Source: Bryobacteraceae bacterium (GTDB lineage Bacteria > Acidobacteriota > Terriglobia > Bryobacterales > Bryobacteraceae). Taken from it: 64,000 nucleotides of DNA. Every line of letters begins with the position of its first letter. Position 1 is the first letter of the stretch. The position numbers and the translations under genes are program-made. This document shows, one piece after another, positions 46,425 through 56,046 of the stretch. Below the pieces are notes generated by a model that was given only the letters and a program-made list of their open reading frames with translations, did not search any database and was not told the DNA's origin. The DNA lies in contig JAIEMJ010000001.1 of the NCBI GenBank assembly GCA_019752335.1, forward strand, positions 248,001 to 312,000, in the 5' to 3' direction.

Positions 46425-46464
46425 CCCATGCCGATTCGTGTTGGCCTTTCGCGGTGCTATCAGG

Positions 46465-47151
46465 CTAAGGGGTGGGCGGTTCCCAGTCGGCGGGGCGGCC
46501 GAGGTTGATGTTGATGCGGCGCTGGAAGGCGCGGCGGTTGGCTTCGGCGGCTACTTCTTCCGGAGTCGGCTGGGGTTTGGGTTCGTTTGGGGTGATTTCT
46601 GTTTCGGATTTGGGTTCGATTGGGGTGGGCTCTGGTTCCGCTGGCTGCGCTATGCGTTGGGCTTGTAAGTCGCGGAGATCTTTGAGGCAGTTGCGGTAGA
46701 GGCGATTGAGTTGGGCATCGTAGCGGAGGTAGAGTTTCAAGATTTGCTCGGATTTGGCGATGCCGTTGGCGAGGTGGGCGCGGGGGTCGGCGTTGGGGAG
46801 GGTTTTGCGGAATTCTTTCTCGTCCTTCGCGATGGCGACTTCGAGTTGGGCGGCTTCGGCGGCCCAGAGCCTTTGTTGGCGGAACTTGGCGAAGACGGCT
46901 TCGGTGAGTAAGTCGAGTTCGTGTTGGCCTTGGGGGGAGTAAGTGGCCAGATATTGGTTGAGCATGCCTAAGTACTGGTCTTTGTCTTCCATTTGCAGGA
47001 AACACGCTGCGGCGAGCGGGTTGCGGTTGAGACTGGAGAGTCCGTGGGTGGTGGCGTTTTGCGCGGAGCGGGCTTTGCCTTCGGGGGTTCTGGGACCCGT
47101 GGAGCCTAGCGCATTGCGGCGATTGGCTTCGATTCGTTTTTTGGATGACAT
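46465..47151 (-). CDS. hypothetical protein of the 'STGPRTPEGKARSAQNA' family
   Basis: The ATG at 47151 gives SSKKRIEANRRNALGSTGPRTPEGKARSAQNATTHGLSS, a basic N-terminal motif that I recall from many multi-copy acidobacterial proteins. A helical middle (QYLGMLNQYLATYSPQGQHELDLLTEAVFAKFRQQRLW) and a Pro/Glu-rich tail follow. Function is unknown. The basic motif suggests DNA or RNA binding. Such genes often stand in accessory regions, as here next to the restriction island. Confidence 0.6.
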   Translation of the reverse strand: MSSKKRIEANRRNALGSTGPRTPEGKARSAQNATTHGLSSLNRNPLAAACFLQMEDKDQYLGMLNQYLATYSPQGQHELDLLTEAVFAKFRQQRLWAAEAAQLEVAIAKDEKEFRKTLPNADPRAHLANGIAKSEQILKLYLRYDAQLNRLYRNCLKDLRDLQAQRIAQPAEPEPTPIEPKSETEITPNEPKPQPTPEEVAAEANRRAFQRRININLGRPADWEPPTP

Positions 47152-47198
47152 GTGGTTCCTTTCGGTGTGTTGGTTTTTGTCGGGCCGGGGGGCCCGAC

Positions 47199-47492
47199 TC
47201 ACAGGGGCATGGTGCCTGGGGGGACGTCGCGGTTTTCCAGGCCTTGGAGGGTCTCGCGGGTGCTGCGGATGGCTTCGATGGCGGCGTCGTGGGCGGCGGG
47301 GTGTTTGATCAATACCTCGAGAATGGCCTCGTAGAAGATGGGCCAGGTTTCGAGGTCAGAGGGAATATAAGCGGGGTTATCGGCTTTTACCAGGTGAATT
47401 TCGTAGGTCTGGTTGCCATGGGTTCGTTTGGGCGAATAAGCAGACGGCGGCGTGTCCGTACGGAATTGATGACAGTAGATGATTTCAGGCAT
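47199..47492 (-). CDS. small hypothetical protein
   Basis: This 97-residue protein has a mixed alpha/beta look with IIYCHQFRTDTPPSAYSPKRTHGNQTYEIHLVKAD and a helical C-terminal half. It could be real because it is followed, 47 bases on, by the 'STGPRTPEGKARS' gene in the same direction, and it has a plausible codon pattern. No family is recognised. Confidence 0.45.
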   Translation of the reverse strand: MPEIIYCHQFRTDTPPSAYSPKRTHGNQTYEIHLVKADNPAYIPSDLETWPIFYEAILEVLIKHPAAHDAAIEAIRSTRETLQGLENRDVPPGTMPL

Positions 47493-47612
47493 AGCTCGGT
47501 TCTCCTGATTTCAATTTATCGGGGAGAGGCAAGAATCTGACTGGTGTTCGCAGGTAAGTACATGAAACCAGGGGCAATAAAATAGTAAAATTGTCGTCAT
47601 CCTAATTCGCGA

Positions 47613-47763
47613 AAGATACTGGCTGGCGAACTGGACCGCGTTTCCCAGACCCTCAGCGGCCGCATCCGGCAATTGGCCGAGCGCTACGCCACCCCGTTGC
47701 CGCAGCTTACGGAGGAAGTCGCGGTGCTGGCGGCCCGGGTTGATGGGCACCTTCGGAGGGAGG
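47613..47763 (+). pseudogene. C-terminal fragment of a type I methyltransferase (hsdM)
   Basis: Read in frame, this stretch gives KILAGELDRVSQTLSGRIRQ, LAERYATPLPQLTEEVAVLA and ARVDGHLRR, which resembles the helical C-terminal tail of some HsdM subunits. No start codon or methyltransferase domain precedes it, and two stop codons lie just upstream. It ends at a 22-bp palindrome and continues in frame into a different protein (DUF1016), so it is a relic fused by rearrangement. Confidence 0.6.
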
Positions 47764-47785
47764 GGACAGACCAGGAGGTCTGTCC
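47764..47785. repeat. 22-bp palindrome at a gene-fusion joint
   Basis: GGACAGACC (47764-47772), loop AGGA, GGTCTGTCC (47777-47785): nine perfectly paired bases. It sits between the hsdM relic and the DUF1016 relic, inside one open frame. This looks like a REP/MITE-type element or a recombination footprint. Confidence 0.6.
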
Positions 47786-48744
47786 TACACGGATAATTGA
47801 AACCTCGGGTTATGGGAAATTGCTGGAGCAGATTTCCGGCACTCGTACGGCGGGCCAGGCTCGGGCGGCGCAGGCGGTGAATACCCAGCTGATCGAAACC
47901 TATTGGCAGGTGGGGCGGCACATCGTCGAGTTTGAGCAGGCGGGGAATCTGCGCGCCGAATACGGCAAAGCACTGCTATCCCAACTGGCCGCGGATCTGG
48001 GCGTGCGGCATGGCAAGGGCTTTAACCGCAGCAATTTGATATACATGCGCATGTTTTACCTGCGTTACCCAATAAGTGCGATGCCATCGCACTTATTGAG
48101 TTGGTCGCATTATCTGGAACTGCTGAAGCTCGACGACGACCTGGAGCGCGGCTTCTACGAGAAGCAGGCCATTGCCGAACGCTGGTCCGTGGCCGAACTG
48201 AAGCGGTAAAAGGCCTCTTCCCTCTTTCTGCGCCTTGCGGCCTCGAAGGACAAGGCGGGCATTCTGCAATTGGCTGCGCAAGGCCAGGTGGTGGCGCAAC
48301 CCGCCGATCTGCTGCGTGAGCCCTACATCTTCGAGTTCCTCAAGATCCCGGAGCCCTACCGGGTCTCCGAGACCGACCTCGAAACCCTGCTTTGTGACCA
48401 TCTGCAGCCCTTCCTGCTGGAACAACACGCACTACCGGGTAGATCTGGTCTTCTACCACCGCATCCTGCGCTGTTTCGTGCTGCTCGACCTGAATCTGGG
48501 CGAGGTCCGGCATGACGATATCGGCCAGATGAACCTCTATCTGGGCTACTTCGCCCACGAGGAGAATGTGGAAGGCGACAACCCGCCCATCGGCCTCATC
48601 CTCAGCCGCCAGAAGGACGAGTTGCTGGTGGAGTATGCCACTTATGGGATGAACAGCCAGGTTTTTGTGTACCAGCTTTATTTGCCGGACCGTGAGTCGT
48701 TGAAGGCTGAGATCGAGCGCACGCTGGCGGAGGCCGGGCGATGA
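47786..48744 (+). pseudogene. broken DUF1016/YhcG-type PDDEXK nuclease
   Basis: The N-terminal part (AVNTQLIETYWQVGRHIVEFEQ and YLELLKLDDDLERGFYEKQAI) is the DUF1016 N-domain. A TAA at 48207-48209 replaces a codon in ELKR-*-KASSLFLRLAASKDK. Coding continues in frame to about 48424, where a frameshifting deletion joins LQPFLLE to NNTHYRVDLVFYHRILRCFVLLDL in another frame. Roughly 15-20 residues before the nuclease core are lost. The nuclease core itself remains readable to 48744. Intact YhcG proteins are found near restriction systems; this copy cannot make a full product. Confidence 0.78.
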
Positions 48745-48782
48745 GGGGGCTTGACGCGCTAGCATCAGGAGAGTAATTGCCC

Positions 48783-50328
<1,546 letters not shown>

Positions 50329-50339
<11 letters not shown>

Positions 50340-51609
50340 AATCGAGAAATGGCGGCGAGTCAGGCTTGGAGATCTTATAAAGGTCGCCCATGGTTGGCCG
50401 TTTAAGAGCGAATTTTTTACTGATGTGAGACTTGGACGGCCCATTGTCGTTAGCATCGGAAATTTTAACTATTCCGGCGGCTTTCGATTTGAATCTACGG
50501 CCGTGAAAGAGTATGCCTCGAGCTATCCCAAAGACTACGAGCTAGCGCCGGGCGATATTCTGCTTGTGATGACCTGTCAAACCTCAGGCGGGGAGATTCT
50601 TGGCATCCCCGGCAGAATTCCGGACGACGGAAATACCTATCTCCATAACCAGCGAATGGGAAAGATTGTCATAAAAGACCCCGCTCGGGTGGACCCAGAT
50701 TTCATCTATTACCTCGCCCTTTGGCCGTTCTTCAATAGAGAGCTATATGTTAGCGGTACGGGCACAAAGATACTCCATACTTCGCCCGGACGGATCGAGA
50801 ATTTTGAATTTGACCTTCCCTCGCTCCCTGAGCAGAGAGCCATTGGTCGAACTCTCCGTTCCCTCGACGACAAGATCGAATTGAACCGGCGGATGAACGC
50901 GACGCTGGAGGCGATGGCGCGGGCGCTGTTCCAGAGCTGGTTCGTGGATTTCGACCCCGTCCGCGCCAAACTCGACGGCCGCCAGCCCCCCGGCCTCGAC
51001 CCCGCCACCGCCGCCCTCTTCCCCAACCACTTTGAGCACGTTCCCGGTAGTATCATTCCGAAGGGTTGGGAGCTCAGCCGGTGGGGGGATATTGCCACGC
51101 TTGAATATGGCAGGAGTCTGCGAGACTACGCCAATTCCGAAGGCCAGTACCGGGTCTTCGGAACGAATGGGCCGATTGGTTTTACGGATAAACCGCTGTG
51201 TCCTAGCGCCGGAATCGTGATCGGCCGCAAGGGTGCATACCGAGGCGTGCACTTCTCGGCTGAGCCTTTCTTTGTGATTGACACCGCATTCTATTTGAAG
51301 CCAAAGCAGCCGACGGATCTAAAGTGGGCCTACTACGAACTGCTGAGATTCGACATCAACAGCATGGACTCCGGCTCTGCCATACCCTCGACAAGTCGGG
51401 AAGACTTCTACGGAATCCCAGTTCTGGTTCCGCCACCAGAGTTACGCGACGCGTTTGGCCAGATCGTGGGCGGTTGGTCTGCAATGAGTATCTCGAACAA
51501 CAATCAATCGCGCACCCTCGGCACCCTGCGCGACACCCTACTTCCCAAGCTGCTTAGCGGAGAACTGAGCGTGGCAAAAGCCGAAGAACTCGCCGGGGCC
51601 GCTACATGA
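50329..51609 (+). CDS. hsdS: type I restriction-modification specificity subunit
   Basis: The protein has 426 residues with two target-recognition domains (about 1-165 and 235-385). They are separated by the conserved spacer [49 protein letters not shown], and the protein ends with the second spacer helix [17 protein letters not shown]. The two recognition domains are clearly less GC-rich than the spacers, the usual sign that recognition domains are exchanged between strains. The DNA target cannot be predicted from sequence alone. It overlaps both neighbours. Confidence 0.94.
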
Positions 51610-52319
51610 GCCAGATCCTGAACCTCTACTGCGATGAGAGTTGCCACTTGGAGCGCGATCATCATCCCGTCATGGTTCTGGGCGTGGTGTGGTGCCCGCA
51701 GGAGAAAGCCCGCGAGATCGCCGTTCGCTTGCGCGAGATCAAAGCGGAACACGGAATCCACAAGGACTTTGAAGTGAAGTGGACCAAGGTCTCACCCGCC
51801 CAACAAGGCTTCTATCTGCACTTACTCGACTATTTCTTTGACGATGACGACCTGCACTTTCGCGGCTGGGTAGCGCACAAAGCCGGCCTGCAGCACGCGG
51901 GCTTCCGGCAAACTCATGATGACTGGTATTACAAGATGATGTTCGGCCTGCTGGAGCCGCTCCTGAGCCCAGACGCCCGCTTCCGTATCTACCTCGACAA
52001 GAAGGATACGCGCAGTGCCAGCAAAGTGAAGAAGCTGCATGATGTGTTGAGCAACAACCTCTACGACTTCAACCGTTCTATCGTCGAGCGGGTGCAGGTG
52101 GTGGAGTCCCACGCGGTGGAGCAGTTGCAACTGGCTGACCTGCTTCTGGGAGCCGTCGGCTACGTCAACCGCGGACTCAGCACCAGTTCCGCCAAGAACG
52201 CACTCGTGGCCCGCATCCGGGAGCGCAGCGGCTATTCTCTCCTCCGGCCGACCCTGCTGCGCGAGCCCAAGTTCAACACCTTCATTTGGCGCGGCCGGGC
52301 GGGAGACAACGCCGCGTGA
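51606..52319 (+). CDS. DUF3800 protein inside the restriction operon
   Basis: The protein has 237 residues. It begins with ILNLYCDESCHLERD, the family D-E-S/T motif, then VMVLGVVWCPQ, FEVKWTKVSPAQQGFYLHLLDYFF, RIYLDKKDT and ESHAVEQLQLADLLLGAVGYV, with acidic residues D8/E9 and later D's that could form an RNase H-like active site. DUF3800 proteins often occur with defence genes, but their biochemistry is unclear. It is coupled to hsdS by an ATGA overlap, so it is expressed as part of the system. Confidence 0.85.
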   Translation: MSQILNLYCDESCHLERDHHPVMVLGVVWCPQEKAREIAVRLREIKAEHGIHKDFEVKWTKVSPAQQGFYLHLLDYFFDDDDLHFRGWVAHKAGLQHAGFRQTHDDWYYKMMFGLLEPLLSPDARFRIYLDKKDTRSASKVKKLHDVLSNNLYDFNRSIVERVQVVESHAVEQLQLADLLLGAVGYVNRGLSTSSAKNALVARIRERSGYSLLRPTLLREPKFNTFIWRGRAGDNAA

Positions 52320-52933: not shown

Positions 52934-55900
52934 ATGCTAAACGAATCTGTAGTTGAAGAAGCCGCTCTGAGCTGGTTCAGCGAGATCGGCTACGCCACTG
53001 CCCATGGCCCCACCCTCTCCCCCGGTGAACCGGCCAGCGAACGAGCGTCGTTTGCCGACGTCGCACTGGAGGGCCGCCTGCGTGAGGCCATCCGCCGGCT
53101 GAACCCCACCATTCCCGCCGAAGCCCAGGACGACGCGCTGCGCAAAGTCCTCCGCGTCGGCACGCCGTCGCTCACCCAAACCAATCGCACGCTTCACGCC
53201 ATGCTCCGCGACGGCGTCCCCGTCGAATACCGCCGCCCCGATGGCAGCATTGCCGGTAATCATGCCCGTCTCCTGGACTTCGAGCACCCCAAAGCCAACG
53301 ATTGGCTGGCCGTCAACCAGTTCACCGTCAGCGAAGGCCAACACAAGCGCAAGCCCGATATCGTCGTCTTCGTCAACGGCTTACCGCTTGCGGTCGTCGA
53401 ACTCAAGAACGCTACCGACGAAAACGCCACCATCTGGACCGCCTACCAACAGCTCCAAACCTACAAGCAGGAGATTGGTAGCCTGTTCCACTACAACGAA
53501 GTGCTGGTGGTTTCGGACGGCTTGCATGCGCGCGTTGGGTCGCTGACGGCCAATCAGGAGTGGTTCAAGGTTTGGCGCACGATTGACGGCGAGGATGAAG
53601 CGGGCAAGTCCGTGCTGGAACTCGATACGCTCATCCGCGGCGTCTTTGAGCCTCAACGCTTCCTGGACCTCATCCAACATTTCATCGTCTTCGAGGAAGA
53701 CCCCGATAGCGACCGGTTGCACAAGATCATCGCCGGCTACCATCAGTTCCACGCTGTGAACACGGCCGTCGAAGAGACGGTCCGCGCGAGCGGCATGGGT
53801 GCCGAAACAGCAGGCAGGGGGACAACGGGGAACGGCAAGCCGGGAGACCGCAAAGCCGGTGTCGTCTGGCACACGCAGGGCTCCGGCAAGAGCTTCTCCA
53901 TGCTCTTCTACGCCTCGCGCGTCGTGCGCCACCCGGCGATGCAGAACCCCACCATCGTCGTGCTCACCGATCGCAACGACTTGGACGACCAACTCTTCGG
54001 CCAATTCCAGCGCTGCCACGAACTGCTGCGCCAGAGGCCCGTCCAGGCGCAGGACCGCGAACACCTGCGCGAACTACTGAAGGTGGCCAGCGGCGGTGTG
54101 GTCTTCACCACCATCCAAAAGTTCCTGCCCGGCAAAGGCGAGCGCATGCCCGAACTGTCCGCCCGCCAGAACATCGTCGTCATCGCTGACGAAGCCCATC
54201 GCAGCCAATATGACGTCATCGACGGCCTAGCCCGCAACATGCGCGATGCCCTGAAGAATGCTTCCTTCATAGGATTTACAGGAACGCCGATTGAAAAGGA
54301 CGACGCCAACACGCGTGGCACCTTCGGCGATTACATCTCGGTCTATGACATCCAGCGCGCCGTGGCCGACGGCGCCACCGTGCCCATCTACTACGAAAGC
54401 CGGATCTCCAAGCTCTCGCTCAACCAAGCCGCGATGCCCAAGATCGACGACGACTTCGAGGAGATCACTGAAGGCGAAGAGCCGACGCGGCGCGAAAAGC
54501 TCAAAACCAAATGGGCCGCGCTCGAAGTGATGGTGGGCAACGAGAAGCGCATCGCGCAGATCGCCGCCGACCTCGTTCTCCACTACGAGCGCCGCTGCGA
54601 GTCGCTGGCGGGCAAAGCCATGGTCGTCTGCATGAGCCGCCGCATCTGCGTCGACCTCTACAACGCCCTCATCGCACTACGCCCGGACTGGGCCGGCGCG
54701 GATGATGACGACGATGAGACCGGCCGGGCCTGCGTAGTGAAGATCGTAATGACCGGTAGCGCCGACGATGGCCCCGCCTGAAGCCGCACATCCGCAGCAA
54801 AGAGCGCCGCCGTGCACTGGCGAATCGCTTCAAGGACCCGAAAGATTCCTTCCGCATCGTCATCGTCCGCGATATGTGGCTCACCGGCTTCGACGCCCCC
54901 TGTCTCCACACCATGTACGCCGACAAGCCCATGAGCGGCCACGGCCTCATGCAGGCCATCGCTCGCGTCAACCGCGTTTATCGCGACAAGCCCGGCGGCC
55001 TGATTGTTGACTACTTGGGCCTCGCCGACCAACTCAAGAAGGCCCTCGCCACCTACACCGAAAGCGGCGGCCAAGGTACGCCCAGCATTGACACGTCCAA
55101 GGCGATCGATGTGATGCGCGAAAAACACCGCGTCGCCTGCGACCTGATGCACGGCTTCCACTGGGGCAAGTGGCTCACCGGCACCCCCGTCGAGCGCCTC
55201 GCCCTGATCCCCGCCGGCCAGGAACATGTCCTCCAACAGGAGAACGGCAAGCAGCGCTTCGCCGAAACCGTCACCGCACTGTCTCGCGCCTTCGCCCTCT
55301 GCTCCTCCACCGACGAAGCGCTGGAACTTCGCGACGACATCGCCTTCTTCCAAGCCATCCGCACTCAGCTATCGAAAACGACCGGCGCCAAACGCGCCCC
55401 AGAACAACTCGACGCCGCCGTCCGCCAACTCGTCTCCGGCGCCATCATGGCCAACGAAGGCATCATCGACGTCTTCACTGCCGCCGGGCTCAAGCAGCCC
55501 AACATCAGCATCCTCTCCGATCAGTTCCTGGCTGAGGTGCGTGGCCTCAAGTACAAGAATGTCGCGGCCGAGTTGCTGGCTACGCTCCTCAAAGGGGAGA
55601 TCACCACCAAGTCTCCCAATAACCTCGTCCAAAGCCGTACCTTCTCGGAGATGCTCAAGAGCACCCTGAACGCTTATCACAATCGCGCCATTTCCAGGAT
55701 GGAAGTGATCGAAGAACTGATCAAACTGGCCAAGATCATGGACGCCGCCGCCAAGCGCGGCAACGAACTCGGCCTCAACAACGAAGAGATCGCCTTCTAC
55801 GACGCCCTCGCCGCGAACGAAAGCGCGGTCCGCGCCATGGGCAACGACCAACTCAAGGTGATCGCCGCCGAACTCGTCACCCAGGTTCGCAAGAGCGTCA

Positions 55901-56046
55901 CCATCGACTGGACCTTGCGCGAAAGCGCCCGCGCCACCATCAAAGTGATGGTCAAGCGGATTCTCCGCAAATACGGGTATCCGCCGGATCTGCAAGACGA
56001 AGCCGTGCAGACGGTGGCGGAGTCGCTTTGCGCGGATTGGGTGTAG
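52934..56046 (+). pseudogene. hsdR: type I restriction endonuclease subunit, frameshifted
   Basis: The first frame (52934-54781) has the nuclease domain with [22 protein letters not shown] (D...ExK, near residue 145), Walker [10 protein letters not shown] (near 315), helicase DEAH motif [11 protein letters not shown] (near 419) and [10 protein letters not shown]. It stops at a TGA at 54779. The next frame continues at once with [20 protein letters not shown] and [20 protein letters not shown] and runs to 56046. One extra base at the CCCC run 54772-54775 would restore a single protein of about 1,037 residues. It could be a real mutation, a phase-variable site or a sequencing error. Confidence 0.88.

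Follow-up and report, generated by a model that had tools for sequence, protein, structure and literature searches.

A GTAG-type REP at the boundary of a dead hsdM-DUF1016 gene pair, and a recurrent palindrome inside DUF1016 genes

Described palindromic repeats and the YhcG family

Palindromic DNA that is also translated has been described in Rickettsia, where RPE are inserted at varied positions in numerous genes according to the available portions of three accounts (PMC3733652, PMC2996958, PMC4316617). The palindrome described here in DUF1016 genes is likewise translated; unlike RPE, it occupies a single codon position in a single gene family and, in the main group of these genes, is accompanied by no visible insertion. 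A second comparison is offered by PARCEL, which are, like the DUF1016 case, coding repeats with dyad symmetry, a variable copy number and links to mobile elements, and which encode 25-residue DUF285-type repeats of imperfect symmetry; DUF1016 is not named in the available portion of that source (PMC2996958). Identity with PARCEL was considered and rejected, as the relic reported below contains only DUF1016 domains and the palindromic units lie approximately 13-19 codons apart and differ in sequence. At integron attC sites the shape is conserved more than the sequence, as in the DUF1016 palindrome; these sites differ in belonging to another enzyme and in being extragenic, larger and asymmetric.

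REPs of the GTAG type, to which the other palindrome of this report is compared, are described in PMC3733652 and PMC2817692, and REPs occur both close to and inside ORFs (PMC3733652, in the portion available).

The DUF1016/YhcG nucleases (COG4804; PADLOC candidate PDC-S02) form a widespread family, which PADLOC counts among the candidate defence genes, and both the relic and the genes compared with it belong to this family. Profile analysis has placed the YhcG nuclease domain near the Holliday-junction resolvases, and an association of YhcG with a type I cassette was noted earlier for Methanosarcina; the embedded palindrome goes unmentioned in the available portion of that account (PMC1189080). 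Neither an established function for DUF1016/YhcG nor a report of palindromes in DUF1016 genes was found in the literature searched, which included few subscription journals.

The hsdM-DUF1016 relic and the REP at its boundary

The window (the whole 64-kb stretch of DNA that was analysed) belongs to a genome of 7.2 Mb in 55 contigs. Positions 47613-48746 of the window hold a dead hsdM-DUF1016 pair left over from an older type I cassette; a GTAG-type REP lies at its hsdM/DUF1016 boundary. The hsdM remnant (47613-47763, + strand) is the C-terminal end of an 829-aa type and shares 79% identity with residues 779-825 of the intact HsdM of a relative, G015. Beyond the boundary lies the DUF1016_N part (47789-48206, + strand; Pfam PF17761, E 2.9e-39; 76% identity to the G015 DUF1016), which is followed by a TAA stop on the same strand (48207-48209) where the intact G015 protein has a glutamine codon. 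Residues 233-248 of the G015 protein are absent, a deletion of approximately 16 codons, and the frame changes near 48421; from there to 48744 the PD-(D/E)XK part (YhcG_C) continues in the other frame of the + strand (Pfam PF06250, E 3.1e-29) and corresponds to G015 residues 249-357 at 87%. The Pfam matches to DUF1016_N and YhcG_C thus fall on either side of the breaks, and no domain other than those of DUF1016 was found in the relic.

An earlier note on this DNA had described one open frame passing from HsdM-type C-terminal sequence through the palindrome GGACAGACC-AGGA-GGTCTGTCC into a DUF1016 N-domain that then suffers a TAA and a frameshifting deletion. This description is borne out: no stop interrupts the frame between 47601, or an earlier position, and the TAA, the residues just past 47613 match the intact G015 HsdM tail, the palindrome lies at the joint (47764-47785), and both lesions are evident against the G015 protein. 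The same note had supposed a decayed restriction cassette next to its replacement, and here too the sequence agrees, the relic adjoining an hsdM of a different subfamily (29% identity to the type of the relic) whose reading frame is intact.

This neighbouring hsdM (520 aa; 48777-50339; Pfam N6_Mtase, E 3.2e-105; PADLOC MTase_I) opens a type I cassette that lies entirely on the + strand. It is followed by hsdS (50329-51609; Pfam Methylase_S; PADLOC Specificity_I), by a DUF3800 gene located between hsdS and hsdR (51606-52319; Pfam E 1.9e-13; PADLOC PDC-M04A) and by hsdR (52934-56046), which is present as two ORFs in different frames (52934-54781 and 54874-56046), the first of which was compared with the family libraries. 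Because hsdR is split, the cassette may itself lack restriction, or the split may be an assembly error. At a further locus, an Rfam match to the DUF3800-IX RNA (E 1.1e-05) lies just before the DUF1016 gene (L257:3850-3914); the window cassette also has a DUF3800 gene.

The palindrome at the joint is the only one of its kind in the window at up to 3 mismatches, where none is expected (100 shuffles). A 9-bp arm pair alone could be a matter of chance in 64 kb, and the joint palindrome is significant because its family is dispersed. The genome-wide search for further copies that the earlier note had proposed returned the exact 22 bp at two sites, one in the window and the other 26.6 kb further on, together with 14 copies having perfect arms; a looser pattern (at most 3 mismatches) gave 46 sites versus 10 for the reversed control. 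In 11 of the 14 perfect-arm copies GTAG is found at one and the same foot, and in none of the 14 at the opposite foot; in the window copy (47764-47788, - strand) it is read on the - strand at 47785-47788. Copies also occur in pairs, inverted on contigs C9 and C13 (47 and 43 bp apart) and direct on C2. Half of the perfect-arm sites (7/14) have no ORF of at least 120 aa across them, and the other seven are crossed by ORFs, which are putative genes. Exact matches to the GTAG consensus were present in 21 of 237 family genomes, the source genome included, and reached 78 copies in one relative, with 0 for the control.

The joint palindrome belongs to a dispersed family of GTAG-type REPs. It resembles the published type in its 22-bp hairpin, in the GTAG at one foot only, in its dispersal and in the inverted arrangement of some pairs; it differs from known GTAG-type REPs in its few copies (14 perfect) and in having no firmly assigned transposase. 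Among the 20 Y1-transposase loci of the source genome, one has a one-mismatch REP copy 7 nt past the stop, two have looser forms nearby and the rest have none, and in seven element-bearing relatives a REP was found beside only one of the 30 such loci read, among 47 matches. The best candidate for a REP partner is the Y1-transposase at L101:1429-2174 (G000:C6:225629-226374), where the REP copy begins 7 nt after the stop. Close relatives of this transposase occur in 66 of the 237 family genomes and are missing from the genome with the most REP copies. Over the 237 family genomes the Y1-transposase genes do not track the REP, and a cognate RAYT firmly tied to it was found neither in the source genome, nor in the 237 family genomes, nor in the seven element-bearing relatives.

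The gene order of intact relatives is revealing of how the joint came about. The intact operon of G015 consists of hsdM (829 aa), a DUF1016 gene overlapping the end of hsdM and an hsdS-like gene (so named by sequence resemblance), and no palindrome is present at its hsdM/DUF1016 boundary. Matches to both the HsdM tail and DUF1016 were obtained for 17 of 61 loci compared (60 plus L149, which is assumed to represent one locus with L239); 16 of the 17 are distinct. The start of DUF1016 overlaps the hsdM stop in 11 of the 16 distinct relatives and the two genes are 80-1293 nt apart in the other five; an hsdM-DUF1016 fusion occurs in none of the 16. To judge from these sequences, the native order is hsdM then DUF1016, and the REP has left this order intact.

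The earlier note had suggested that the cassette was rearranged at, or by, a mobile palindrome. Of this suggestion, the dispersed family stands and the rearrangement does not. A palindrome that caused the fusion by rearrangement would account for its position exactly at the joint, which is seen twice, but both halves of the relic follow the order of the intact hsdM-DUF1016 operons; because intact relatives share that order, rearrangement at or by the joint palindrome is rejected, and we regard it as highly improbable. The palindrome is not unique, its copies being dispersed, none of the 16 relatives carries the fused frame, and the comparison with intact loci that the note had advised showed neither fusion nor rearrangement at the joint, only hsdM followed by DUF1016. 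The joint itself is unremarkable: a dead operon carries a REP where two of its genes meet. The uninterrupted frame across this point is best understood as a side effect of the insertion together with the decay of the genes.

The break that removed most of hsdM lies instead at 47613-47614; here hsdM was cut near codon 779 by a dispersed repeat module, whose right edge it now adjoins. This module (46462-47614, - strand) contains two small ORFs (245 and 97 aa) and shares 90% identity with G000:C4:319491-320674. Among the 40 of 135 candidates that were scored, at least 35 pieces in the genome match it, many of them at contig ends. Another copy of the module lies at L038:7491-10193, and in one copy a terminase-like gene follows the 245- and 97-aa genes. 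A congener (G138) keeps the gene that stands before the island, and its contig ends approximately 1.1 kb later.

The second exact copy of the palindrome, 26.6 kb away in L038, likewise separates hsdM from DUF1016, in a relic of this pair that has decayed further. The sharing of this REP boundary suggests that the REP insertion is older than the duplication of the relic; the REP would have inserted at the hsdM/DUF1016 boundary and the relic would then have been duplicated. This second hsdM-REP-DUF1016 relic (L038:10800-13014) adjoins an apparent CRISPR array, its repeat recognised by eye, and beside it are genes that we take to be possible type III genes.

The palindrome within DUF1016 genes

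Within the DUF1016_N part of the relic lies a different palindrome that the earlier note does not mention, CAATAAGTGCGATG-C-CATCGCACTTATTG (48070-48098), composed of 14+1+14 bases with 14 of 14 pairs formed and centred at 48084, in the loop codons before an LSW motif. The only other DUF1016_N match in the genome (threshold E 0.001) has a different perfect palindrome in the same place, and in many DUF1016 genes the palindrome is centred on base 1 of the codon six places before the W of LSW. This symmetry was surveyed in 88 DUF1016 genes, 84 of them distinct. A palindrome scoring at least 11 was found in the 62 codons before LSW in 51 of the 88, the remaining 37 scoring below 11; elsewhere in the gene, which comprises 83% of the bases, such a palindrome was found in 2 of 88, apparently one locus fetched twice. 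When the centre was fixed, a mean of 9.42 of 14 pairs was formed versus 5.09 with random synonymous codons. At least 12 of the 14 pairs were formed in 34 of 83 genes (synonymous-codon null: mean 0.07, maximum 2 in 500 rounds) and all 14 in 20 of 83 (null 0.000); with the centre displaced by 4 to 40 bases, at most one gene reached 12 pairs. Every palindrome with a score of at least 10, including those in tandem, has its centre at the first position of a codon (62/62, coding phase 0). The outer 13 pairs are perfect in 22 genes, and 19 different arms are found among these.

No length difference marks an insertion at the palindrome in the main group, and tandem in-frame copies, with units approximately 13-19 codons apart, occur in E. 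coli and in Acidobacteria. Flanking copies resembling the internal palindrome (at least 20 of 27) were found for 5 of 51 genes, three of them from E. coli, with a permuted null of 3.0%; a cognate palindrome in the flanks was thus rejected as a general feature of DUF1016 genes.

It was predicted beforehand that most of 12 unused plasmid genes would score at least 11 before LSW. As worded, this prediction failed, with 4 of the 12 reaching that score, or 5 if L340, whose motif the pattern missed, is included. At the fixed centre, a count made after the prediction, 10 of 11 testable plasmid genes form at least 10 of 14 pairs, each with P<=0.016 against the codon null, and these ten come from cyanobacteria, actinobacteria, planctomycetes, Bacteroidota and Pseudomonadota. 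The gene L341 forms 5 of 14 pairs there.

An AlphaFold2 model of the protein (mean pLDDT 77, pTM 0.48) places the palindrome codons in a predicted loop of DUF1016_N between helices 101-113 and 126-133. Foldseek searches with this model returned only weak matches to PD-(D/E)XK nucleases, and a sequence search of the PDB returned nothing convincing.

The two arms of the palindrome were compared for covariation. In 82 genes taken with no pairing filter, 68.0% of positions were paired versus 44.3% when the 3' letters were shuffled (maximum 48.0%), and 14.3-28.4% when the centre was slid by 3 or 6 bases. Because kin sequences can exceed such shuffles, mutual nearest pairs by protein identity were used as well. 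In 18 sister pairs, 15 of 18 double changes were complementary, compared with 0-1 of 5-13 when the centre was slid, and one-sided changes were frequent as well, numbering 50 versus 66-79 when slid. A second set of 58 sequences is biased because 57 of them were picked for pairing (at least 8 of 14 pairs); in this biased set 90.8% of positions were paired versus 67.3% shuffled and 29.9-36.8% slid, the covariation score was 0.585 versus 0.176 shuffled and 0.041-0.090 slid, and of the 15 double changes found among its 13 sister pairs, 14 were complementary. As far as these alignments speak, the arms change together while their letters differ, beyond what protein or codon usage would give. Paired residue changes in the DUF1016 loop may hence reflect the symmetry of the DNA and not protein contacts.

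The mispairs bear on a hairpin in the coding region of the mRNA that would control translation or decay of the DUF1016 message. A stem of 13-14 bp would be stable in RNA, and at the innermost pair G.T mispairs (9) exceed A.C mispairs (3); however, an RNA stem tolerates G.U, and the outer 13 pairs have G.T (18) and A.C (20) in nearly equal number and so do not clearly indicate a stem in the mRNA. The four Rfam matches obtained in eight loci also lie away from the palindrome. With no G.U excess at the outer pairs, a regulatory RNA reading was rejected, and we consider the mRNA hairpin improbable.

Explanations for the persistent symmetry

The explanation put forward here, tentatively and with rather less than even confidence, joins a dead pair carrying a REP at its boundary to a DUF1016 palindrome whose symmetry would be maintained because the DNA itself has a function. 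The internal palindrome would be a DNA-level structural site tied to the DUF1016 family and conserved in shape. What is recognised may be the folded form, a cruciform or hairpin, or the two-fold symmetry of the site; the reader would most likely be the DUF1016 nuclease or a partner, and the naming of DUF1016 itself as the reader is a guess. Such a site would serve as a point of exchange, insertion or control for the DUF1016 gene, as hinted by the one to three in-frame units of E. coli, by the copy after yhcG and by the single copy in two strains with no yhcG at that site. It is also possible, if unlikely, that these nucleases carry their own recognition structure within the gene: the palindrome would form a cruciform that is read by shape and cut or bound, and target and reader would travel and change together. 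If true, this would constitute a nuclease-palindrome pair built on a PD-(D/E)XK enzyme, with a logic like that of RAYT and REP but unrelated to them, and could explain the movement and control of these defence-linked genes. The shape of the palindrome, kept at one codon from Acidobacteria to cyanobacteria, offers a concrete and testable substrate for the family.

The E. coli yhcG locus shows the palindrome in variable number. Whole or partial matches to yhcG were found in 4417 of 5426 complete E. coli genomes. Three in-frame palindromes are present in K-12, one in 20R2R and two with different letters in 2022N21-074-17, the extra units being visible as added length. A further palindrome lies past the yhcG stop in all four strains read there, and K-12 has one more after gltD. 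Strains JA0265 and 4/4 have no yhcG between gltD and nanQ and retain a single palindrome at that place, whose left flank matches that of the K-12 copy after gltD and whose right flank matches that of the copy after yhcG. Such a site would be produced by exchange between the outer palindromes or by a deletion between repeats. In several E. coli strains (L292, L294-L298) yhcG is broken by frameshift, truncation or insertion sequences, and in L297 the yhcG match stops at the third palindrome.

Self-templated mutation and a selfish coding element are serious rivals to a DNA-level function. Under the first, replication would slip between the arms so that one is copied onto the other, and the symmetry would persist without any function. 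Whole-arm changes between close relatives (the E. coli P1 variants and the sister pairs) and the lack of strand bias in the types of mispair are consistent with such copying, which nevertheless leaves unexplained why the palindrome is held to a fixed codon of one family across phyla. The dead copies also bear on it: that of L038 has decayed to 9 of 14 pairs unrepaired, which argues against self-templating, although this is one case and the window relic still has 14 of 14. We judge self-templated mutation to be unlikely as the explanation of the symmetry.

Under the second, a selfish palindromic element would insert in frame, as in Rickettsia, and use the tolerant DUF1016 loop. The location in a predicted loop, the constant frame (62/62), the tandem copies in E. 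coli and Acidobacteria and the extragenic copies in some contigs all fit such an element. Against this, the main group shows no insertion by length, and when E. coli genomes were searched with one palindrome, no genome had more than 5 places (median 2, both strands probably being counted); the palindrome is thus not a genome-wide E. coli repeat at the search sensitivity used, and the six further matches that were opened all lie at the yhcG locus. The selfish element appears doubtful to us.

Extragenic copies of the palindrome exist and need explaining. Loci that had been obtained without a palindrome pattern contain only two AATT-type palindromes outside DUF1016, both of them beside a DUF1016 gene. 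In viral contigs, palindromes of the first core class form 11-13 of 13 pairs and occupy 14 sites, distributed over 12 contigs; they lie inside DUF1016 in 4 contigs, and the other 8 of the 12 hold a palindrome with no DUF1016 found. The second core class is represented in 20 viral contigs, inside DUF1016 in 4 (11-12 pairs) and elsewhere in 16 (8-11 of 13). Scans of viral contigs with the G015 and E. coli proteins detected no relatives, and no DUF1016 remains were detected within 1.5 kb of the palindromes in the eight first-class contigs and one second-class contig (E >= 1). The possibility that the viral extragenic palindromes are themselves DUF1016 remains was accordingly set aside as unsupported at these values.

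In one viral contig (L304:4690-6120), identical stretches of approximately 90 nt, containing palindromes recognised by eye, flank 1.3 kb with two ORFs, which we take to resemble a toxin-antitoxin pair. Perfect palindromes of the same class are also located between genes at L308:5825 and L311:1221, and that of L308 adjoins a gene presumably resembling rhuM.
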